From positions 930,001-994,000 of the forward strand of contig JARGXX010000096.1 in NCBI GenBank assembly GCA_030374765.1: a stretch of DNA of 64,000 nucleotides. The letters are read 5' to 3'. Origin of the DNA: Agarophyton chilense. Its lineage: Eukaryota; Rhodophyta; Florideophyceae; Gracilariales; Gracilariaceae. Below the pieces are notes generated by a model that saw nothing but the letters and a program-made list of their open reading frames with translations, ran no database searches and was not told where the DNA came from. This document shows positions 41,271 to 62,499 of this stretch, piece after piece. Each line of letters begins with the position of its first letter. Position 1 is the first letter of the stretch. The position numbers and the translations under genes are program-made.

Positions 41271-42835
41271 CAAATTTGTATGGCATAGTAGTTAGGCCAG
41301 TTTCGGTCTTATCTGAAACAAATTATATGTCGCTCAAACTGAAATTTAGCCCGATCGGTACAACGAATTGCAGAATGTTTTGGTGAGGAACGTTTGAACA
41401 CCAGACGGACGAACTTGACGACATCAACACATGTCGAGAATTCTCAAAATTGTCTAATGATTCCTATAGTGAACACATGTTGTTTCACACAAGCTATCTA
41501 ATATGGACGACACGCGCGATTGTTTACCGAAAAACATACACACTACTCAACACGCCCTTTTTGAGAGGGTTTTTGATTTGCTCTACCTCCAGAGGATAAA
41601 CGGCGCCTTGTTCTACCTACCGAAATAGACTTTTCATTTCCAGTTTCTAGTACTCCTTCATCGTTACCACCACTGTCTCGAGCAATCGGAGCATTTGTAT
41701 GTCTTTTTTTGAGCTCTCCGGCCGAAAGCAAAACTGTCCAACAGCTTTTGCAGAGCCCAGGGTACGTACAAATGCACAATGGTATAAAACAGAGAGAACG
41801 GCTGTATGAAGTTCTATGCCCCCTCCATCCTTCCCTATGCTGACCGCAAAGTGCACAATACTGCCCTATTTTTTTCCTGCTTTGGCGTATGACCTGCGAC
41901 AGACAAACGAAGACAAGTTCCATATATAGAATTGAAAAAGTGGAGCCGATTCCGTTTCCGTCCTTGAGCCAATTCAATCAACCTTCGACCTTCCCCGCTT
42001 TCAACCTCGAAGTCATTATGTGCTTCTAGCTTAACAGGGTTGGATTATAGTTTCTCGGCGTTACTCAGCAGCTCTTGAGAAACATCAAACATAAAATCCG
42101 CGGTAGATTGTACTTTGTTCAGGCCGTTCCGACAACTTTCTAAAAATTTTAATACTTCAGAAGAATCCAGAAGCTCTTTTCTTTCAAAAATCCTCCATGC
42201 AAGGAAGGCATTGAGGGCTACAGTTTTGAGACACCGGGAGACAAGCTTTTGCTCCCACTTCAGGTGTGATGTTGATGATCTGAGAATTGAACGTTGTTGG
42301 GTAGCACCATCCACACCCGCTTTAGTTTTGAAGTAGATGGTTTGAGCTGCGTGCTTGAAAAGCTTAAATGAAACTTAGGATCTCTTTGCTCTTACGTAGT
42401 TTTCAACAATCTGCCGGAATTTATGACGCGATCGAAGCGTCTCAAACAATTCTATGTCCACGAAAACCGGAAATGTACTGATCTACTCATAAGCCCATTT
42501 CAAAAGCGGGGCTACAACCTCTGCTAGAACAGTTGTGCATAAACCCAAAACACTTTTGGAGCAACATGCTACAACCACGTACAAAATGCCGGTCTCCGCG
42601 GCGGCCACATAAATGGAGCATATTAAACGGAGGACAATCAGCTGGTGCATTATTGGAGCCATGTTCTCTGTTGGAACGTGCTTTCGAAACGTTTGGTCTC
42701 CGACTTCGCAAAAAATTACATCGCTTGACGACAGGTGTATTGCGTTATAAAGACTTGTTGGGGCCACGCGAGTTTTGATTTCGATACGAATGGACACAAA
42801 CCTCCACCCATCGACCACCAGAACATGGTCCTCGT

Positions 42836-43485
42836 TGTAGTATTCTACTATGTCGGGGAATCAGATAGGTTGGTTTTTCGCGAAGTCGCGGTTGGAACTC
42901 ATAAGTGAGTGTTATCATCAGCATAGTGATATGAAGCGCCATCCCGCATAGGATGCCTAGAAGCAGAATGTCTTAGTGGAACACGTGGCGTCATGGGTCG
43001 AGTGGCTTACCACGGCGCGCGCATAGATGCGACCCTTCCTAGGGGAATGCCATATTGGCAACGGCGCATGTAGTGGCGATCCACGTGGAGGGCTTTACTA
43101 CCCTTTGTAGCTAGACGTCCATTTGGGACCATACCCATACAGTGGTTTGGCTATGTGGCTGACCACTGGGTATTATTTATATATTTATTTGGGCACTCAC
43201 CCTGGTACACAGTATATAGTGTACCAGAGGTGAGCGCCGACTCTAAGTAAAGGACACAACATGGGCATCATGACTATTCTGTTCCTCGCTTAGGATTCCT
43301 TCACCGGAGATCCGGACGAGCTATAATAGATAGTCAGCCCCCAACCACTTCACGAGCCGTCTCGTACCTACGTTCCATCAACGTTTTACAGTTGCACTGT
43401 TCACCCTCGCTGGCGAGTAGTGGCCTTACACCCCATTTCCAGCTTGCTGGTGTTGTAGCTCTACCACCCCCTTTCCTTCGCCGCA
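42836..43485. repeat. LTR-like repeat, copy B (650 bp) inside the transposon
   Basis: Homologous along its length to 39296-39944. It splits the YqaJ domain of copy 1 between the SPDG and EIK motifs. Ends are TGTAGTA and TTCGCCGCA on plus. No clear target duplication. Confidence 0.68.
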
Positions 43486-45393
43486 AGCGATCCATCGGCA
43501 GTCCGAACGCTTTCGCAGGTGTCTGCTCTCTCCGTTAGAGCGGATACTACACTCGTTGTCGTTATTGTTTTCAAACTGATTGACGTCAAATAACGAAATG
43601 CCGTCTGGTGAGCACGCCAGGTATCGTTGATTTTTCAGGGCTATCACGCCGATCTCGAACACGCCGATCTCGAACACTACGATGACGAAAGGCAAAGAGG
43701 AAATGGCGTTGAGAACTGCAGATTCGTAAGCGCTCCCCCTCATCATCGGTTCAGTTGAGAGCTTTTGGCTAAGCCACATGCTCTGAACCACATTAAACCA
43801 TTCCTTCAACTTCCGCTTCTCTACTGTATCTAAAGCTTGAACTCCTAGCTGAAACGGCACAGAATTGCTCCGCATCAGCACCTTACCCGCATTGGTCCCA
43901 GTTACTTGGAATTGATGGAGCACAAACCAGTCAGCACATCGCTGTCCTATACTTAACATCTCACACGTTTCCATCAACGCAGCTTCGATTGCTTCTTTCA
44001 GCAAGTGTACTTAGGGCTCCACCCATTTTCGGCTAGTGAACAACTTCATTTCGAAGTTCACACTGTATTTCAGAACTGCAACCCAGGTATTTAGTCTCTC
44101 CTGGATGCTATCTGGTACAGTGTATAAAACTCGTAACATATTGGCGAATTCCCCTGTACTTTGCTCACGAACTGCAATGGCTGTAATTGTTTTAAAGCCA
44201 ACCCGTGCACCATCGGACCATATGTGCTTTGAAACGAAGAAGCGCTCCGGTCCAAGATGGGGCCCGTCATCAATGACGAATCGAGAATGTAGGTCGTTAA
44301 GGGCGTTCTTGCTATGCCCCCGAAGAAGGGCTTCAACGTCTGTCGTTCTCTTTCGAGATGTAGCTTGCTGATGTGTCCTAACGTCGCCCATATTTCCAAC
44401 TTGGACCATAGTTGATTCCAAATCTGAGTTTTTGTCATACTCCACAACTTCATTGTTCTCCAGGACAGTGCCTTCCAACTTATAATCCCTGAAAGAGCTC
44501 AAAAACAACCCCCCCATAAAAAGGTGGCATCGATTGAGATGCTCGGGCATTACGAAAATTGAAGCAAGGCCACGTTCTCTTAGAAAAAGTAGAAACTCCT
44601 CCTTTCCGTACCCTCTGTCGGCAGTGATAATGCATCCGTTTAATGCCTGCTCCCCGCGCCCATTGAAAAAGTTTCGCAATTGTTTTTTCACAGACTCCGT
44701 CTGCTTCTCCCCTCTACGACGAAACCTCAGATCCAAAATGATGCTGAAGAAGGCGTCTGCAATGGCATCAGCAGAATGCCCCTCTTTGTCTGCTTCCGTG
44801 CGCTGAGCATTTTTATCTGATTGTCTGACGCACGTGTGCCAAAGAGATCGTCATCAAGAGTGAGAAAAAGAAAAAATGGCGAGGAAAATACTTTCTAACT
44901 CTCTCTGAACGGAATGCGCTCGAACTCAGACAACTGTCTGGTTTCGTCCCTTTGTGAATTCCACGAAAGCCGACCTTTGTTGCCCCTTCCCGTGGGTGGA
45001 TACGATAGGATATTACCTGCAATGAATTGTACTATCTCTAAGGATGGTGTGGTGCTTCGTGCATTTCGGAGAATAGAGACAGTCTTCTCAAAACTAAATC
45101 CAGAACAATGATAAAGAAGAAGCACCGCCACGTAACCGTACGTAGTGGCCACTGTCACAACAGTTTTCTGAGTGCTGCGAAGTTAAATGACCTCATTTAG
45201 CCACTCCATGCATTTATTTATTACATCGTTCATAAAATATACAACGAAACCCCCTCTTGTTGGTGAGATCACTTGAACCGTGAACTCCTCCTACAATTTA
45301 TCTATTGCTGGAAGAGAAAACATTCTCGTGCGCTCTTTGATCAAAGACGTGGAAAATCCTTGCTCCATTATCACAGAGGAGCAGACTACCGCG

Positions 45394-46209
45394 TATAGAG
45401 CAATGCGTGCGCGTAGAACTGGTCGGGGCACCATTCATATGGCGTTTGATATATCGGAGACCACGTTGGTGATTTTATGAGTAATACTAGTTTTTAGTTT
45501 TTTAAGCACCTTAGAAGGTATGTTAGTTAAGTGTCTACAGTAGCACCGTAGTGGACGGATGAACGTGCAAGGCTGGTATTACACGAATGATATGTGCATG
45601 GACCAGGATAGGATTGCACCACTATGGTCTACACGTGTAGTTCACGGTCTAGAATAGACTGAAGCAATGGCTTCACCGCCATCGCTACCACCAAGAAAAT
45701 GGTAACCGAGTGCTTTGCTCTAGACCATGTCGCCTACGTGAGTCTCCATCTCTTCACGGGAGGAACTGCGACCGGTTTGGCTAAACTATCCCCTCGGGAA
45801 GCTCAGCCCTCACTGTACCATCGTTATTGGTGTGTTTCTTTCTTTTTTTGGTTTTCCTGTGTTTAGGTCAGTACACTGCCCCTGCATATGGTTGTTTTTA
45901 CCCGTCTTTCTTTTGCTTATCCAGTGTGGATACTCCTTACATAGGTCTGTACGCTTGTTCGTGCGTACTATTTCGCCCTACATTTTCACCCTACACTTTG
46001 CCGTTGTCCGCGGAATATCCTTGTCCTTGAATCCTCCTTTGATTCTTCCCTTTTTCCTGGGTTTCTCACCTTCGTAGGTACTGCCTGAACCACCGTGATC
46101 TTACACCCACGAATTGGTGGCACGAAGGCTCGTTCACTGAGATACCCCTCTTCACTAGAGCGGGACTCGAACACCCGAGAGGTATTTCCCCATCTGAGAT
46201 TGCTCTACA
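45394..46209 (-). repeat. Solo LTR D, 816 bp
   Basis: Flanked by the exact 5-bp repeat CCGCG (45389-45393 and 46210-46214). On the minus strand it starts TGTAGAGCAATCTCAGATGG and ends TTGCTCTATA. Removing it plus one CCGCG joins SLWWKLGA to VVCSSVIMEQGF in frame, matching the paralogous copy at 60 kb. Its start resembles solo LTR C. Confidence 0.85.
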
Positions 46210-46483
46210 CCGCGCCTAGTTTCCACCACAGACTAGGGTCAGGTAACCCAGTCGAAGAATTCCGACTTCGACCACGACTGCGACTACGACCGCGGCCACG
46301 ACCATTGTCACGACTGCGATCACTGGTTTGGTGGCCTTTTCGACCTCTATCTCTTTCATATGAGTAGCGTGACATCCGTTCAAGAGTACTACCATGGATT
46401 GTGACCCTGACACGCTGTCCACCAGTTCCAGAAGCAACATCAACTTTTCGCTCCGCATTATAAACGCTACGAACCCTATGCAA

Positions 46484-48587
46484 CGTAATCGAAGGGGATT
46501 GGGACGCGCTTTACGGGTCCAAATCTATTTTGGACAACGGTTGTGGAAATTGAAGCACAATGCCCTTCAAGGGGGTTTCATGGCAGGACTTAGAAGTTTC
46601 GCTCGCTTAAAGAATAGCTTGGGCTATGACAAGCTATACCGCTATTGCGTGCTGACGGCCGGTTAGAACCGGAAGGGCACAATGGTGGAACACATGGACT
46701 GCACGGATGCCAACGCTCGAGTACGAGGCGTGCCACACGTGGCCCGGATTCTACCTAATGGTTAGTATTATTTAGTAGTTTTTAGTATTTATGTAGCTAC
46801 GCTATCGCTATTTAGTGTCTATTTTTCGGGCGCGCGCCCACTGTCAGGGGCCGCACGCCACACTTCTTAGGAGGTTGAGCACTGGTCCCCAGTAAACACC
46901 CTCTTGGGAGATCCCAAGGAGGGAGTCTTGGCTCTGAAATTTTCGCCTTCGGCGCGTCTTCACTTCATACCGCGTGAGCGCCCGTCGCACGTTATTTCAT
47001 CCACCCTCCTGTCTACCAGAGTGCTACCACCACCATGGGTTCATATTTAATCGCCGACACTTGTCGTAGTCTCGCCCCTGTATAGGGTTTCGCCCCCGTT
47101 TTCTTCTTGTTCTCCTTTTTGCCTCTCGTGAGTGGCTGCACCACTCACCCCGCTCTTCCACCTCATACGAGTGTTTTCTCGCTCTTTTTCCGACAATCGC
47201 CGTGGTACCGCTCCGCTAAGGACTGGTCACAACCCGGACTGTGCCGTGCACACCTAAACACTCTAGGTATATCCCGCCGGATTGGCCTCGGTCTTACAGC
47301 CGACTTCTTCGTTCCTTTCCAGAGTGGCTTTGTTTCTGTGCTGCGCTGGAACGCGTCTCCTCCACCTGAGCCGTGTCTTTCAAGAGAGAAAAATCCCGAA
47401 CATCTTCGAGGTATCTCCAGTCCAAGCGGTGTTCTACAGAAATTGGCCGGCAACAAAAAAAGGGAAATGCAGTTGTGTTCGGAGATTATCGGTCCAAAGA
47501 CCATAGAAGACGTCTGACCAAGAAAAGGTGGAACGGATGGTGTGCGAAGAACTGCATTTTAGATGGCGCTTTGGCTTAACGAGTTTCGAACCGATTTAGC
47601 ATCTGGAAAGCCGATTTGAAACTGGAGACAGTGCTGGTAGAGAAAGGTAACCCATATCTACCGTTCCTGTCAAGGCTGCAGCGCAGCGCCTGCATTTATA
47701 GAGCCCTATACGGGCCTTTTGTGATTGCTATACTGGAAATGATGACTAAATCTGTAAAGCTTTTATTTTTGCTATTGTTCACTATAGTGAACACACCGGG
47801 CATTAGGGATATAAGATCAAATTCTTTGTCGAATAGACAATAGGGTGTCGGATGTGAACAGAGTGTGTCGAGATCCGGCGTCTAAAATAGACGTGTGGTC
47901 ATTTTTGTACTTTTGTTTGAAACTTTGGTGCACTTCTGATACCACAGGCACGGAATTCAATCAGCTCTTTTTGTGTTCCAAATTGAACCCTTTTGATTGC
48001 TATCTACCGTGTTGGTACTTAAAAGACAATAATATAAATTAAACTTTAATGGAAGCATTCATGGCTGCCGAATCTATTTCAAAGATATTGCACGACCAAC
48101 TGAGTATTACGATAGTACACACCTACACCTCTTTATGCACCCATTCTTAACATTTAGAAGAAAGCAAATGCTATTGGTGGCACTTACAATCAGCAAGCGG
48201 TCACTCCTCAAATCGCATAATCTCCCTTTCTGAAACACACCCAAATTATCAATATATGAAAGCGATGACTTATCTGAAGTTTATTGAAGGGTCGGATGTT
48301 TTGTGCATGAACTCTCGACCACACCAGCTGCAGATTCTGCAGAGTTGTGGAAGAACTGGGCTCTCAAGCTCTCAAGGGTTTCAGTTCGCGGAGTTGGATT
48401 GAGGAAAGGCCTCTCCGTGTGAGTCCCAATCGTGGCGCTGTTTAAATTGGTACGGGGACCTGTACTTCTGAGTTTGATTCAACGTGTGGCGATTTCTTCC
48501 TGTGGACTTGAGCAAGCACAGAAACCGGGAATTAAACTTTGTCGGAATTCTAGCTCAGCTTTCGGTCAGTCGTTTGTTTCCCTCGTC
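46484..48587. other. Unassigned repeat-like region
   Basis: No gene recognised. It contains a 14-bp palindrome TTCACTATAGTGAA (about 47777-47790) that could mark the far end of transposon copy 1. A stretch at about 47060-47100 (TCGCCCCTGTAT-GGGTTTC) resembles part of solo LTR C, hinting at another decayed LTR. Confidence 0.35.
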
Positions 48588-49061
48588 TTACAAGTTTTTG
48601 GTTGCCCAGATGCCAAACAGCACCGTTGCAAGCAAGCCCACTAACGAGAACACTAGAATCGGCACATTTGAAGTCCCGGCCGTCTCCGCAATGTAATCGC
48701 CCGCCTTCTTCGCGAATCTCCTCTTTGGCGCGTTGCACTGCGGGCATTTCCATGATGCAGGCAGGTCCTCGAACTTCACCTTCCGTCCCGGTTTGTACGT
48801 GTACCCACAATCCACGCAAAGCCAGTCGCCCTGCCAATATCTGGAGCTATCGCGGCGAGACCCAGGCGCCGGCGCTTCCTTGGGCTTTTCTGGCGGCTCA
48901 GTAGATGACATCTCCACCGATGTGCGCGCGCGTTGACGCGGGAGCGATGTCGCATTCTGCTGCGGAAGACGCGGTCGCACTGGCGTAAGTGCAGAGAGTG
49001 AAAGCCCAGACCGCGATATTGGAATGAACGACGCCACGAACGCTCCCCTTCGATGAGTCAT
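48588..49061 (-). CDS. RBD1: Plastid membrane-anchored rubredoxin
   Basis: 157 aa from ATG 49061. Order: an Arg/Ser/Pro-rich transit-like N-terminus (1-50), an acidic/Pro linker, the rubredoxin domain with Cys82-x2-Cys85-GYTY and Cys106-x2-Cys109, and a C-terminal TM helix (about 133-153). Four Cys bind one iron. This layout (rubredoxin then C-terminal TM) is that of RBD1/RubA, known in photosystem assembly in cyanobacteria and green algae. The frame is intact although both flanks are transposon debris. Substrate or redox partner is inferred from the family. Confidence 0.9.
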   Translation of the reverse strand: MTHRRGAFVASFIPISRSGLSLSALTPVRPRLPQQNATSLPRQRARTSVEMSSTEPPEKPKEAPAPGSRRDSSRYWQGDWLCVDCGYTYKPGRKVKFEDLPASWKCPQCNAPKRRFAKKAGDYIAETAGTSNVPILVFSLVGLLATVLFGIWATKNL

Positions 49062-55396: not shown

Positions 55397-55993
55397 TAAT
55401 AGAGCTACCTTCGTAAAGAATCGTGAACGCATTCCACAGAGTTCCGTTGTTGTTTCGACCGCGTCGTCTTGAACTGCATAAATTATTTCGGATCACATCT
55501 CGACATTGCTATATGTAGGGGAACATGAAGAAAGAACGTTGCTTTAATCAGAAAAGAATGCCTAGTGCCTATGCGCCCGAGGAATTGGCCTCGATTGAAG
55601 GCAAGTTGACCTCCGTGACACCTGGTGGGGTGTGTGAGCGGCGTAACGGAACAGAACAATATCCCTAGTACAACATTTTAAGATCCATTTTTCTGCACAT
55701 TAACTTTGAGCTTCTGTGCTTAGAAGCCTTTGAGACGAATCGCAAAAGTAAGCCCGTAGCCTTGTTGGGGACGATAAGTTCCGTGTTTGTGCGAAGTTTC
55801 AGCGTAATTGGACAAGTAGTTCAAGTGTTACAGAGTGTCAAAGTTGGGCTCTTCAAACTACCTCAAACAGTCTCAAAATGCCTTATGTGCGATAAATTGG
55901 ACTTTACGACCACCCTCCTGCTCCCCAAACAGCGACATTTGCTACATCTCTCTATCTCTGTCCTAATTGCCTCGCCCTGGATTGTCACTCCCC
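55397..55993. other. Flank of transposon copy 2
   Basis: No gene recognised. It probably includes the 3' end of the transposon, but I cannot place its terminus. Confidence 0.35.
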
Positions 55994-58900
55994 TCATCTC
56001 CTCTTCGAATGCGGCCCTCGGCTTGCGTTTGTGCCTTCTGAAAGTCGTCTTGAAGACCTTAATGATACCATACTGGATCTTCTTTGGAGATTGCTACTAG
56101 CGGGCTCTATTTCATCCTCAACTTCCTCAACTTCCTCAGAGCTTCTCTGCACATCATCACCACTAAGTCTCTGGCCACTCCCATTCAGCCCTGACATAGA
56201 TCCTGAGGCACTTGTACCATCTCTGCTTTGAGAACGTGAGGGTGCTCTCGCTAGAATCCTGCGCGAATCTAGAAACTTGTTTGTGTGCCAGATGTGGGAA
56301 CAACTCTTCCTGAAACCTGGCGCTACCTTTAGGCAAAGGTGCACAAAGCAAGCTTGGCATTTCCACTGAGTCTGATGTCTTAGGTACCCTTGAGTTTGTG
56401 CTCCACACAACGCGCAGTGTTGCAATGGTGCTGCCTCAGCGTGATGGCACTTAACAGAAACTCAAAGTTTAACTCCATCAATATAGTTGAAGAAAGTAAG
56501 CTTGTATCGCTTCTTGGTTTTCGCAAGAGAAATTAAGCGCTTATTCTCAACATCATTTGTCTCCAATTGCGTTTCGTTGCAATCTTCGCTGTGTTTCTGT
56601 AGCTGGATAGTAGCCGCGTAGCTGAGTAGCTCCTGAGCAAAATCAAACATTAAATCCGAGGTTGATTGAACCTTGTTCAACTCGTGACGATAGCTATCGA
56701 TTGAGCGAAACTGTTCATCTGATTCCGACAACTCTTGGCGCTGAAACATCCGCCATGCAATGTGAGCATTTACAGCAAGGGTTTTCAGTGTTTGTGAGAC
56801 AATCTTCTGCTCCCACTTGAACCGAGAGATAGAACTGCGCAGGTTTGCTCTTTGCTGAGTAGCCCCATCAACTCTTCCCTTCGTCTTAGAATAAAGCTCT
56901 GCACAGCATGCTTGAATAGCTTCAAAGGCACAAAACAACCATTTCTCTGGACGTGCTCGTCAACCATCTTCCAGAATTTGAGCCGAGCCTTCAAACAGTG
57001 TTTTTCTTCCACTTTAACGAAGGATGGAAATGAACATTTGCTCTTATAGGCCCATTCAACCAACGTTTTGGCCATAGAGACGATACTTTGCTCAAACAGT
57101 TCACGAGTCGTCGATGATACCCGTATGATGACAGTGTACAGTACACTCGTCTCACCAGCAACAACGTAGACGCAGAACTCAACTGTCCAAACGACAGCTT
57201 GGTGAACAATTTGAGCCATGTGCTCGTGTGTGATGTACTTTTTGAATGTATCATCGCCAACATCGCAACGTACTATGTCCGGCGATGACAATTGTATAGC
57301 TTCTCCAAGAGTAGAAGAGGCAACCCTCGTCTTAATCTCCAGCGAAGCCAAGACAAGTGTCTCGGATTCAAACCCCTCTAGCAGCCTCGCGTCCCCCCAG
57401 TCCTCGTACAATTCGATGTCCAAAACCAACTCTGCATCGGGTGAACATGCTATGTAGGGTTCGTGTTTCATGGAGACCATTGTGGAGCAAAACCCGGCGA
57501 CGGGAAGTGCTCTCAAGGTGTTCGAAGCCTTGCTCCCTGGGGGAGGCAGACTCAGAGACAGAGCCCTCCGTTCCACCCGTAGTGTGGGGTGTAACTCCCA
57601 CGGAGGATTCCGGCAGTACCGACGGAGGTGAGGGGTAGAAACCGTTGGATCGGGAATGGGTATGGGTATCCCAAAGAATGGGGGAAAATCCGGCGAAGAG
57701 GAAAACCGGGGCGAGGGTCGGGCAATAACAGGCACCGGACCCGAGAACCAGAAAAGGGGCGAAACAACAAAAGAAACCCAATACAGGGGCGAAAACCTGT
57801 CCTCGAAAGGAAACACAAAAAGCACGCAACAAGTAAGCAGAACCCCCACGGGGTATCGTGCACGCCGGTCGTCTGAGCGGTCCCAAGGGGGTGGTTGCGC
57901 GGAACCCAAACGTGGGCACTCCCCAAGTGGAGTCGTGTCCCTACGCAGGCGTTGCTAACTAGAGCCCGTTCCGGGTTGTAAGGCCGAAACGATGGCGACG
58001 AAGAACCTCTAAAGGTATCGAAGACCAACCTTGGTTTCCATTTACTTTGAGCTTTGGACTGTCAGATCTCATCTCCCTAAGTAGGGCCCACTAACTAAAC
58101 TCTACAGTAGTGCACACCTGCTCAGGGCCATACACGTGGAGATCCCACTGTTAGGGCCCAAAAGTCCAACGTTCTAACAAATATCCGAAAATCGGTGCCA
58201 AAATTAAGCCACGTGTATCACGGGGCCAATCCAACCATGGGCCATCCGAATTGTCACTTCATAGGCGAACTCTAACCAGAAACCTGTGCCACCTCAGCAC
58301 ACCTTAGAGGGGATCATAGTCATAACCCTCGGAGGGTTCAATCCTCATTCTATGAGTTGCATCTTCAAGTATCCCCTAACTGGGAGTTGCTCTACAACCA
58401 TGCCGACCTCGAAGATAGCCTTCACGGCTTCCAGTCTTGTAAGGGCACTAACAACTGCAGACTTATTCGATGTAACCCTCTTCATGGCTTCAGTAGAAAC
58501 CTTCGAGCTAAACCAGCCGCCATGCAGCAGCGAAAACCATTCCGCCAAAGTCTTCTCATTCCCTCCCGACTTCAGTCCAAGTTGAGCTCTAACATCGTCA
58601 AGAGTCATCAAAAGGTGCCCCGCATTTGTACCAGTCACCTTGAACTGACGCAGAACGAAACAGTCAGCACATCGATGACCCAATGTCAGAACGTCGCAAA
58701 CAGCAATAATCATTCCTTCTGCCACTATTCTCATCTTCTCTGCCGCTTCATTCGGCTGCTCATTACTGCTGAACAGAGTCGATCGCAAAGAAACATTTGC
58801 CTTAGGCACTGCGAGCCATGTGTTGAGGCTTTTCTGCAGCGAAGACGGCACAGTATACATGAAACGGAGGATCTCTAAATACTTCTCTGTGCCGTGCTCA

Positions 58901-60534
58901 CGCACAGCAATAGCAGTGACACGGTTGCTTCCAGTTCTGGTTCCAACACCTGAGATAGCCTTCGATGCAAAGAAAACCTCTGGACCCAATTCTGGGTCGT
59001 CATCTATAACGAACTCCTTGCGCCGATCAAATGAGGTGATCTCAGTGCGCCATGCGGCCTGCTTGGCATCGCTTTCACTTCCCATGACTTGTTCAGAGTC
59101 CCTTTCTTCCTTTCGACAACTTCCGGTTGCCACCTGTATCGGGGTCGTTTCGCACCTTGCTGCCCCAGTTTGGGACACATCTGCTCCTGGATTTTGTTCC
59201 AATTGGTTCCTCACTTCTCCTGCACCCGACTCTACAATCCCGTCTTCAAGTGCCTCTCTGTAAGGGGTATAGTAAGAGTTATCCAGAAACGGTTGGCAGC
59301 GTTTAACATGCTCTGGTATGATAAAAATGGAGCACAGACCAAACTCCATCAAGATTCTTACCATCGCCTCCTTGCCATACCCTCGATCCGCCGTGACATT
59401 ATATCCCACCAACGATTCTTCACCCCGTCCATCTAACAGCTTCTCGAGCAACTTTGTAACTGCTACCGTTTGTCCTTCCCCCCGTCTTCAAAATCGTATG
59501 GCCAGTGTGACTCTGAACAACGCATCAGCCACAGCGTCAGCTGTGTGACCCTCTCGGTCTGCCTTGCGTGAGCTAAGAGTCTTCACCTGAGTATCACCAG
59601 CGCGTGTGCCAAATAGATCATCATCTAAAGTTATGATACTATGCAAGGGCTCAAAAAAGACCTTCCTAGTGTCTGCAAAAGCAATGGTCTCGAACTCTGT
59701 GAGCTTTTGCGTCTGGTCTCGTTGCGAATTCCATGTCGCCTGTCCACTCTCACCTCTTCTTGTTGTCGGATACGCCAGGACATGTGACGCTATGTATCTC
59801 ATTCTATCCAAATCGGGTGGAACACAACCTGCCTGTCTTAAGATAGAAATGGCCTTATGAAAAATGAATCCAGTTGTGTGAGAAAACAGCAAAACAGCGA
59901 CATAGCGATACATTTCGGGTAGTGAGAACGATGCTGCGGATCCACGCTCAGTGGGTTTCTTTAACCTGACATACTCATTGAGCCATTCCAATAACTGCCG
60001 TATCAAACGATTAAGAAACAGAACAAGCACTCCACACCTTGTTTGGGATAATCCTTTTACCTCTAGCTCCAACTTCAGATTCCTCATAGAGGCCTTACAG
60101 AAATAGCGAGCGCGGTGTTGTAAGACATTGTCAAAGAACTCTTTCTCCATCATCAAGCCGTTGCGTTGTGTCTTTCTCATAACCCAACCAGCGGTGGCAT
60201 CCTCCAACAATTTGTTTGATCTCCGTTTTGAAAACCCTCTGCCACGCGCTCTTCCACTCCCGCGTCCCCTTCCCCGCCCAATTGTAGCTCCTCGTCCTCT
60301 TCCTCGCCCTCTGCCGCGTAAAGTTGGCCGACAATCCACACATACGTCTTCATAAAGCAGAACAGTTGCCTCTAAAGGCGCTTGACGTGGTATTTGCCCA
60401 ACTCCTGCGGTGGAATTCGGCACAAACGGGGCAGCTTGTCGGGGACCATCTGTTGGGGCATCTGGAGTGCTTTGGTTGGTGTTATCCACTTTTTCAATCG
60501 ACAAAGGAAGATCGTCGAAAGGCATGGATGACAT
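55994..60534 (-). mobile_element. DDE transposase-YqaJ nuclease transposon gene, copy 2 (broken)
   Basis: Minus strand; likely start at the ATG 60534 (MSSMPFDDLP), with the frame open to 60729. Order: Pro/Gln-rich N-terminus, RGRGRGRG tract, helical region, YRYVAVLLFSHTTGF, WNSQRDQTQKLTEFE, ITLDDDLFGTRAG, TGA at 59488-59490, VTADRGYGKEAMVRIL, FVIDDDPELGPEVFFASK, IAVREHGTEKY, then RCADCFVLRQFKVTGTNAG (YqaJ start). Solo LTR C follows, then YIACSPDAE, ASLEIKTRVAS, VDGATQQRANL helices, a TGA at 56462, and a Cys/His cluster (CALCGAQTQGYLRH, WKCQAC, KSCSHIWHT). Frame is kept across the LTR, and one base is lost near 56894. The upstream nuclease Glu reads Lys here (SNKSAV versus AYESAV in copy 1). 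Confidence 0.82.
57481..58396 (-). repeat. Solo LTR C, 916 bp
   Basis: Flanked by the exact 5-bp repeat ACCAT (57476-57480 and 58397-58401). Plus-strand ends are TGTGGAGCAA and TTGCTCTACA, an imperfect 10-bp inverted repeat with TG...CA termini. It interrupts the nuclease between AIFEVGMV and SMKHEPYIAC; 921 added bases keep the frame. Confidence 0.9.
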
Positions 60535-60729
60535 GGTGGAAGACTTTGAGTAACTTGACCACAGACACGGCAATTGGGCTCCGATTGCAAAGGTTGGAAC
60601 CCTGGAAGGTCGGGAAAAGACCGCTAAACCCAGTCGTGAGCTCAGAATTGGATCAAAGTAAACGGTTAGAGAGCTAGAGGCCGTCAAAGTTGGGCGTTTT
60701 ACGGCTCTAAAGGCCAAATTATCGCACAT

Positions 60730-62499
60730 AAGAATAAAACGATATCATCTGCATTTCTCATAAAGTCCTTTTTTTGGACCTTATCGTACTAGTGATATAA
60801 TCCGGTCGATCGCAAAGTCATGAAACTATGCAAAGGTAGTGCGAAGCTAGCGTGTTTTTGCCATAATTACAACATTGATAGATTCTGTTAAAATTGTCAA
60901 TATTCCTAACTTTTTGCGCCTAGATGTTGTCAACACTTCTTTCTTCTCTGGCATCAACCTCTAACACAGCGAAAAAGTTTCCACATCTTTTAAACAACCT
61001 TATGTTTAATCCACGCTGTCACAAGTGATCAACTAGGTCACTAACCACTGATCTCCGACGTATGATCGAAATCATAGTCATCACCCGCGCACATGTAATT
61101 AAATCAGAAAGACACTGAAAGCATTTTTTGCACACAATAGACGATAAAACTTGTTAGCGGAAGTGTCGCAAAAGTCGCAGTTGTTGTAAAAAACCGTCGA
61201 CATACCCTCGTAACGATAATCTACAGGCTATCCGGTAGAGAGAATCTGTGCACTCTAAAAATCTAACATTTCAAAGCTGGTGCTCAATTCACAGTTCAAA
61301 AAAATTCCAAAAAAGCCGTACTACTTTGTACGGAGAGAAATGGTTCTCAACTTATTCATAGCGTCTTTTCGACTGGGAGATTTTCGCAAATATGTAGGTA
61401 ATTTGAAACGAATAATTCATAGCCGTATTCTAGCTTTATTGTAGATACAACAGTTTACGCAAAAACAAAATATAGCTACAGTACGAAGGTTGTATGACTA
61501 TAGGGGTCAAACTTCACCTCTGTGCCTTCCGTTTCTTCGTTTTCGCGACGACACCGTTGCTTTGCAGCTGCACGAAGGCTTTGCTGCCATGCATTCATGC
61601 TGCACTAACACGAGATGAAATAAGCGGAAAGGCTGCAGAACTAAATGCGTCGAAACGACTTTTGTCGCTGGCGAATAAAAATACGTTTCAAGAAGAAAAA
61701 GTTGGTCTTAAAGACTGCACCTGCAGTTAATTTAAGTTCTACTCTATTTCTTTGCCTCTATAAAAACGTAAGTTTTAAAAGACAAGAATTGACTAAGTAA
61801 CATATTTTTAATGTTTTTATCAGCTGCAACCGTTTTAAACTTAAAAAGAGAAAATCTGTATCTCTTCCGTGATTTTTGCTTTCGTTTTCATAAGACTCCA
61901 ATCATATTGGGCCTCATAAGAGTGATTAAACAGATCTACAGCTCGCTTTAGTTATCGCTGTGCCTGTATAACGTCAACATGTAAAGTACTAAGACTTTTA
62001 GAAAGCCCATATAGATGGACTGATCTAAGTAGCGTTTTCCCGGGGCCTTGTCGAAGTGTAACAGGCCGACTATAACAAGCGAACGAGTTCTGTAAAAGAA
62101 AAAGTAGGGTTGAGCTCCAAAAAGATCAAGTTGCATTTTATGACCTAAGAAATGAATAGGAAAGTGAAACTTCGGGAGTCCCCTGCTTTCATTCTATACA
62201 TCTGCTCAGTTCTGCTGTTTAACTTCAAGACGTGCCTAGGCCACAGGGGTCAGGTACCGGCTCGGTTCAAACGAATTGTGCCGGCTCTCTCTCAGTACAC
62301 CAGCCTTAAACCATCGAATGAGGATGCAGCAGGAACGAGTTTCATAGAGTGAGTTAGGGAAAATAAGGGCTCTCCGCTGAGAAGCAGGGCTTTGGACGGA
62401 GCCCGAGAAGAAGTGGCACAGGGTCTTTAGAATCCTGTGGAGGCATGTACTGAGTTTTGTACTGTTTGTAAAGCTATTTGAAACGTATTTTTTTGCAAA
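60730..62499. other. AT-rich region, no gene
   Basis: AT-rich with many short homopolymers. One 78-codon plus frame at 61494-61730 has an ATG and a hydrophobic, Cys-containing N-terminus that could be a signal peptide, but nothing else supports it. Confidence 0.35.

Follow-up and report, generated by a model that had tools for sequence, protein, structure and literature searches.

The 64,000-nucleotide stretch of the genome of the red alga Agarophyton chilense analysed here (contig JARGXX010000096.1, positions 930,001 to 994,000, or G000:C96:930001-994000; hereafter the window) contains a degraded transposon in which the motifs of a DDE-type transposase and of a YqaJ-like nuclease follow one another on the minus strand, which raises the question of whether the two form one protein and, if so, how one is built into the other. 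A search of the 79.8-Mb assembly of this species, in which genomic loci are labelled with L-numbers and contigs with C-numbers, reveals a family of such elements whose transposase and nuclease share a single frame in a fixed order. The best explanation of the whole, which we consider likely, is an autonomous cut-and-paste family that encodes one protein, with a piggyBac-like DDD core split by a YqaJ nuclease, and that targets ATAT.

Transposase and nuclease in a single frame

Two long frames on different contigs, 39% identical to each other, carry the finding. The first (L065, C98:217500-226000) is unbroken over 912 codons, from the arginine- and glycine-rich (RG) tract through the DDE half and the nuclease to past the motif YSKTKGGVDG, and stops short of the C-terminal Cys cluster; the second (L066, C33:374000-381500) is unbroken over 883 codons, from before the proposed first catalytic Asp (D1) into the Cys cluster. 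A further frame of 688 codons (L002) starts ahead of the nuclease and runs on past the Cys cluster. Moreover, two protein searches of the genome returned at least 69 stretches (the best 65 of 192 candidates scored), 60 of the 69 with stops, and 86 stretches (95 of 95 scored), and chaining both match tables per strand within 3 kb, a procedure that builds in strand agreement but not order, resulted in 77 loci. The DDE N half and the nuclease occur together in 36 of these, in the same order in 36/36, and 27 loci contain the region of the proposed third Asp (D3) as well; the nuclease and the D3 region without the N half are present in nine, and the N half alone in 19. The motif order across copies is not due to chance. 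The first-pass annotation had proposed a single protein rather than neighbouring genes, a view that the two frames and the constant order confirm; specifically, the two longest-framed copies were checked for a stop and start, or a separate gene, between transposase and nuclease, and neither is present.

The same annotation had described one motif order in two diverged copies in the window, and this order is indeed seen in copy A (60534-55994, minus strand) and in copy B. The order given for 55994..60534 stands, whereas the element itself is larger, spanning 60798-55659 with ATAT at both ends. The features are as follows.

55659..60798, minus strand: whole element, copy A, subfamily S1; 5140 bp including a 916-bp solo long terminal repeat (LTR); homology to other S1 copies ends sharply here
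60795..60798, no strand: left target-site duplication ATAT of copy A, assigned via paralogous empty sites of two other copies
60511..60534, minus strand: MSSMPFDD, likely protein start of copy A, a presumptive choice of start
60295..60318, minus strand: RGRGRGRG, RG-rich N-terminal tract of copy A, read from the sequence
59614..59631, minus strand: TLDDDL, proposed first catalytic Asp of copy A, from Asp conservation and a D1-D2 spacing like that of piggyBac
59488..59490, minus strand: in-frame TGA (decay) of copy A, from frame reading
59374..59394, minus strand: TADRGYG, proposed second catalytic Asp of copy A, from conservation and sub-threshold Pfam DDE_Tnp_1 matches in three relatives
58618..58635, minus strand: TGTNAG, start of the YqaJ nuclease domain of copy A, from Pfam YqaJ in relatives and the nuclease alignment A4
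57481..58396, minus strand: solo LTR inside the nuclease of copy A (TGTAG...CCACA, 916 bp, 5-bp ATGGT duplication)
57436..57447, minus strand: CSPD, nuclease motif of copy A with the putative catalytic Asp
57328..57339, minus strand: EIKT, nuclease motif of copy A with the putative catalytic Glu and Lys
56864..56893, minus strand: YSKTKGRVDG, proposed third catalytic Asp of copy A, behind the nuclease
56285..56416, minus strand: C-terminal Cys/His cluster of copy A (CALCG...IWH), which resembles the piggyBac cysteine-rich domain; zf-Tnp_2 sub-threshold in relatives
55659..55662, no strand: right target-site duplication ATAT of copy A, assigned as the left one
41546..47812, minus strand: copy B, degraded and diverged, with further insertions; left end ATATCCCTAATGC at 47812

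Copy A, a DNA transposon in decay, has its nuclease split by a solo LTR. On the minus strand its motifs follow as RG tract, TLDDDL, TADRGYG, TGTNAG, CSPD, EIKT, YSKTKGRVDG and CALCG...IWH, and it is bounded by ATAT adjoining CACTAGTAC on the left and by ...GTACTAGGG adjoining ATAT on the right. An in-frame ATG is also present upstream of MSSMPFDD, at 60729. LTRs begin with TG and end with CA, and the insertion at 58396-57481 is read as a solo LTR because of such ends and of the 5-bp ATGGT duplication. Copy A also changes frame near 56.9 kb and has a further stop at 56464-56462. In copy B, the protein-motif region (about 45.4-41.5 kb) keeps the order of copy A but is frameshifted and broken by insertions, and its right end was not found. 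Neither window copy therefore has an intact, continuous nuclease. A 0.92-kb repeat that matches the solo LTR of copy A is also present in or beside two other copies of the family (C28, C105).

Element ends and the ATAT target site

Nucleotide homology between copies stops sharply at lengths of 4220 bp (S1), 3862 bp (S2) and 4072 bp (S3), so that the family measures about 3.9-4.2 kb and falls into three subfamilies. In 11 copies with both ends, chosen from the nucleotide comparison, ATAT stands beside both ends in 11/11, while CCCTA is found at eight left ends (the exceptions being C109, copy A of the window and C13) and at ten right ones (the exception being C13). Inverted repeats measure 8-10 bp in six of the seven copies measured and 1 bp in copy A, whose left end is mutated. 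An exact pattern of four A/T letters followed by CCCTA[AG]T, scanned in 42 regions, finds left ends in 19, with ATAT in 19/19, and right ends in 20, with ATAT in 19 and ATAA in one.

The joined flanks of the eleven copies were also searched in the genome, and for three of them places were found that run across the joint. The C33 insertion has one such place, which was read, and the C105 insertion has 15, of which two were read; these empty sites contain one ATAT, a model that outscores no ATAT, AT only and two ATAT. The third insertion has five, of which three were read, and its repeat is diverged at the joint: one ATAT leads by 3 points at two of the places and AT only leads by 1 point at the other, which is not decisive. 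The target-site duplication is the 4-bp ATAT, since a single ATAT is present at the paralogous empty sites of two insertions.

S2 elements also contain a 24-bp near-palindrome, TAATGTACGGTGTATCGTACATTA, at unequal distances from the ends (in the L066 element at 66-89 on the left and 16-39 on the right, counted from CCC), which recalls the internal repeats of piggyBac. Compared with 300 shuffles, the S2 palindrome score is reached by 5-7 and that of S3 by 10-71; in S1, no palindrome was found on the left and the score on the right is reached by 48-63 of the 300. The end palindromes are no more than a hint.

The fused element at C105 (L067; cf. G000:C68:2608000 and C79:503097) is inserted in a repeat, and about nine of the 15 other places of this repeat, compared by eye, have stretches of canonical piggyBac transposase no more than about 1 kb away. 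This is read as one transposon family having landed in another.

A YqaJ nuclease and a proposed third aspartate behind it

The Pfam YqaJ model (PF09588) has four matches in the genome, 4/4 over the cut-off and all at loci of the fusion family; on single open reading frames (ORFs), it scores 23.8 bits (E 5.8e-5) in L002 and 23.1 bits (E 1e-4) in L018, with a cut-off of 22 bits. It matches at E<=1 in 8 of 34 ORF pieces, which were taken from a longer ORF list and several of which come from one copy. A scan of viral contigs with the nuclease gave one confirmed locus (L078) among 38 candidate stretches, where the gene of a 215-residue YqaJ protein (Pfam 1.7e-26) is flanked by those of ERF and SSB. 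The hhalign comparison of the family nuclease alignment with this protein gives P=1e-7; the match spans 98 columns with 31% identity and reaches as far as the SPD(G) motif. The two share the motif order VTGTNAG / STEAMKRGT / EVGMV..CSPDG / EIK, whereas the phage YqaJ recombination exonuclease stands alone in an apparent recombination operon. On these similarities the nuclease is a YqaJ homologue, and the earlier assignment to the YqaJ type is upheld.

The Asp of CSPD and the Glu and Lys of EIKT, which we take to be catalytic by assignment from the lambda-exonuclease family, are kept in 29/34, 34/37 and 30/37 copies, respectively, and their columns are more conserved than 83, 95 and 75% of the nuclease columns. 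Between 19 sequence groups, each with one representative, the ratio of nonsynonymous to synonymous differences (pN/pS, with pS at 0.73-0.79 and hence near saturation) is 0.56 for the nuclease, 0.50 for the DDE N-half and 0.41 for the DDE C-part; within groups it is 0.82-1.08, as expected of decaying copies. The between-group value of 0.56 suggests that selection maintained the nuclease as the element spread, under slightly weaker constraint than the DDE parts. The fold might have been kept as a DNA-binding or structural insertion domain that no longer cuts: passages of PMC7351741 describe piggyBac insertion domains that bind flanking or target DNA, and the catalytic Lys is the least conserved residue of the triad. 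This reading is rather unlikely, as the high ranks of the D, E and K columns speak against it.

In the transposase, Asp occupies columns 249, 250 and 251 of the D1 region in 24/32, 29/32 and 30/32 copies, the second Asp (D2) is present in 28/33, and 79 positions separate column 249 from D2, compared with 78 in piggyBac (D268-D346). The Asp of the D3 segment, YSKTKGGVDG, is found in 29/30 copies and is invariant in alignments A2 and A3; this segment (A3) has a mean column identity of 69%, the DDE N-half (A5) one of 66% and the nuclease (A4) one of 58%, in alignments that differ in row number. Residues 431-481 of piggyBac read ...YYNQTKGGVDTLDQ...RW...INS and the family reads YSKTKGGVDG...KW...VNS, with Y-x-x-TKGGVD identical to piggyBac 439-447 and with distances of 18 from Asp to Trp and 33 from Asp to Asn in both. 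A hidden Markov model (HMM) of 15 family D3 segments scores piggyBac 431-481 above 1000/1000 shuffles and piggyBat above 995/1000, and hhalign of the D3 segment yields P=1.7e-4, reached by 0/500 column shuffles, against a four-row profile (piggyBac, piggyBat and two canonical copies of this genome). In one ORF (L014:1573-2451), YqaJ matches residues 8-97 and positions 300-349 of the 349 of DDE_Tnp_1_7 match residues 227-275 (E=0.0014). Below the cut-offs, three of the 34 ORF pieces match DDE_Tnp_1 (best E 0.026), from behind D1 to beyond D2, and two match zf-Tnp_2 (best E 0.011), whose four genome-wide matches are all sub-threshold, the two best lying in copies of the fusion family. The HMM of the DDE N-half beats 1000/1000 shuffles of piggyBac 135-327, but over the helical part 138-185 only, and found nothing in piggyBat. 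Moreover, the termini begin with CC[C/T]T as in piggyBac (CCCTA), though the repeats measure 8-10 bp; excerpts of PMC2872659 give CC[C/T]T for the piggyBac superfamily and a usual inverted repeat length of 12-19 bp.

Several observations weigh against a nuclease held within a piggyBac-like transposase. TTAA, the defining target of piggyBac, is not used and ATAT is used instead, and no full-length piggyBac sequence match was obtained. The genome search with DDE_Tnp_1_7 returned at least 119 stretches (116 of 298 candidates scored), and none of those listed overlaps the fused loci; in the ORF pieces, the best score of this model is 18.5 bits against a cut-off of 22.4, in 1/34 pieces and at the C-terminal end of the model only, and unrelated families reach similar E-values in the same scan (Surp 0.0079, EBNA2_Core 0.041), so that single weak matches mean little. 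The D3 comparison by hhalign used short segments chosen after the motif had been seen, and with two of the four rows misregistered by one it gave P=0.0054, with 0/300 shuffles. Comparison of the DDE N and C parts with four canonical piggyBac sequences of the genome by hhalign gives P values of 0.2-0.6, and the C-part HMM misses the third-Asp region of the canonical copies L068, L070 and L071. With the DDE N, DDE C and nuclease alignments alike, profile searches of the PDB sequences recovered neither piggyBac nor a nuclease, and the AlphaFold2 model of the DDE N-half of the window (from a four-row alignment) is unusable, with a predicted local distance difference test score of 35. A conserved Glu that precedes the nuclease (column 491, 30/32 copies) could be the third catalytic residue. 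Lastly, three of the 77 loci have the DDE N and D3 parts with no detectable nuclease, one of them (C105:2062989 on) through an internal deletion, and catalytic residues are lost in some copies, including L065, where some motifs read CLPD and RTDRVYG.

Single-sequence PDB searches with two fused proteins gave no relevant match, and a search by pattern for relatives of the C-part matched 27 stretches in viral contigs and 102 in prokaryote contigs, none of which was confirmed. Taken as sequence evidence, the location of the third-Asp motif behind the nuclease is well supported, and the transposase appears most like that of piggyBac. Because of the absence of TTAA and of the negative profile comparisons, the family is called piggyBac-like, and not a member of piggyBac as defined.

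Canonical transposases of the piggyBac type are also numerous in this genome and fall into at least two types (L068-L071, L079-L090). Six full stretches with stop-free 690-codon frames (two on C16 and one each on C28, C27, C96 and C77) look recently active.

Probable nesting of the nuclease, rival arrangements and precedents

According to passages of PMC7351741, an insertion domain (372-433) breaks the piggyBac catalytic domain (263-457, with D268, D346 and D447) after its fifth strand; this insertion domain lies along the target-DNA channel, contacts the hairpin and occupies the same place as the insertion domains of other DDE transposases. If YSKTKGGVDG is taken as D3, the interval from D2 to D3 is longer by about 430 residues, the nuclease among them. 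The nuclease is thus probably enclosed in a piggyBac-like catalytic domain, at the site of the piggyBac insertion domain. The succession of transposase, nuclease and helices described previously holds as an order, but the helices appear to form the remainder of the catalytic domain, third Asp included, which probably makes the nuclease a nested rather than an appended part. Compared with piggyBac of T. ni (PDB 6x67/6x68; PF13843, PF13842), the family shares the type of termini, a 4-bp A/T palindromic duplication, the D1-D2 spacing, YxxTKGGVD and a C-terminal Cys/His cluster that resembles the piggyBac cysteine-rich domain; conversely, it differs in its ATAT target, in the extra residues and in lacking a full-length match.

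We infer the fold, the nesting, the chemistry and the role of the nuclease. The protein would comprise about 1000-1100 residues, with a disordered RG-rich N-terminus, a DDD transposase and a C-terminal Cys/His domain, and a long insertion, with the nuclease of the YqaJ / lambda-exonuclease type in it, would divide the RNase H-type core of the transposase between the second and the third Asp. By analogy with piggyBac, the DDD site may nick the ends and form 4-nt hairpins on ATAT, and the element would be joined to a new ATAT, which is duplicated. Because it would be placed where the piggyBac insertion domain lines the channel, the nuclease would act on flanking donor DNA, on hairpins or on flaps. 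The first-pass annotation had suggested that the nuclease could process ends or donor breaks. Its preferred role is the resection of the broken donor site, which would favour repair from the sister copy and thereby raise the copy number; alternatively, it may remove hairpins or flaps, or be purely structural. As for its origin, the chances seem evenly balanced that a phage-type recombination exonuclease was inserted at the piggyBac-like insertion-domain site, that selection then preserved it across many subfamilies while the target shifted from TTAA to ATAT, and that one polypeptide both excises and resects.

The nuclease may instead follow a complete DDE domain whose third residue is Glu 491, in a tandem like that of KolobokE, with the GGVD segment as an unrelated C-terminal domain. 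Passages of PMC9587614 describe in KolobokE a DDE transposase and, downstream of the transposase domain, a lambda-exonuclease-like PD-(D/E)XK nuclease in one element, with a 4-bp A/T duplication; the A/T-only duplication of the present family and its conserved Glu 491 would agree with this. However, the same source gives Kolobok termini of the form 5'-RR ... YY-3' and a TTAA duplication, compared with 5'-CC and ATAT here; no C/DxxH column pair exceeds 30% between D2 and the nuclease, and one Cys column only exceeds 60% between D1 and D2, hence no CCHC. Moreover, few parts of the family are as conserved as the GGVD segment, whose Asp is invariant and which matches the third-Asp region of piggyBac. 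The tandem is improbable, and termini and motifs, compared with the published descriptions, weaken an identification as Kolobok.

Far less probable is an ISL2EU/Harbinger-type element with the YqaJ protein fused to its transposase. ISL2EU elements are DDE transposons that do carry a YqaJ-domain protein, but as a separate ORF, and with AT duplications, GG termini and an HTH/THAP (helix-turn-helix/THAP) transposase, according to excerpts of PMC4482050. The ATAT duplication, the CCC termini and the lack of a DDE_Tnp_4 match at E<=1 in the 34 ORF pieces rule out this group, in agreement with the initial impression that the DDE core was not Harbinger-like and that the arrangement differed from ISL2EU. 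Separate neighbouring genes or an assembly artefact, which the stops, frameshifts and insertions of the window copies might suggest, are hardly credible and are rejected on the 912- and 883-codon frames of two diverged copies on different contigs, and on the order shared by 36/36 loci.

The nearest precedents are KolobokE and ISL2EU, and nucleases of unclear purpose are described in several DDE superfamilies, namely in ISL2EU (passages of PMC4482050) and in KolobokE, KolobokD and KolobokP (passages of PMC9587614). In the open-access literature, Repbase lying outside that search, no report of a nuclease within a piggyBac-like transposase was found, nor any paper that combines piggyBac with a full set of nuclease and architecture terms, and none of the papers that join YqaJ and piggyBac is about such an element, judged by title and abstract opening. 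In the available passages of one piggyBac paper (PMC2872659), ATAT occurs in primers only. If the nuclease is indeed built into a piggyBac-like catalytic domain, its activity would be coupled physically to the cut ends. The purpose of such nucleases would then become testable by single-residue mutants in an excision assay. Likewise, piggyBac is a genome-engineering tool, and a natural relative with an ATAT target and a large tolerated insertion would show what the insertion-domain site accepts.

Elsewhere in the window, an ORF at 48588-49061 on the minus strand encodes 157 residues with two CxxC pairs (CVDCGY, CPQCNAP) and appears rubredoxin-like.

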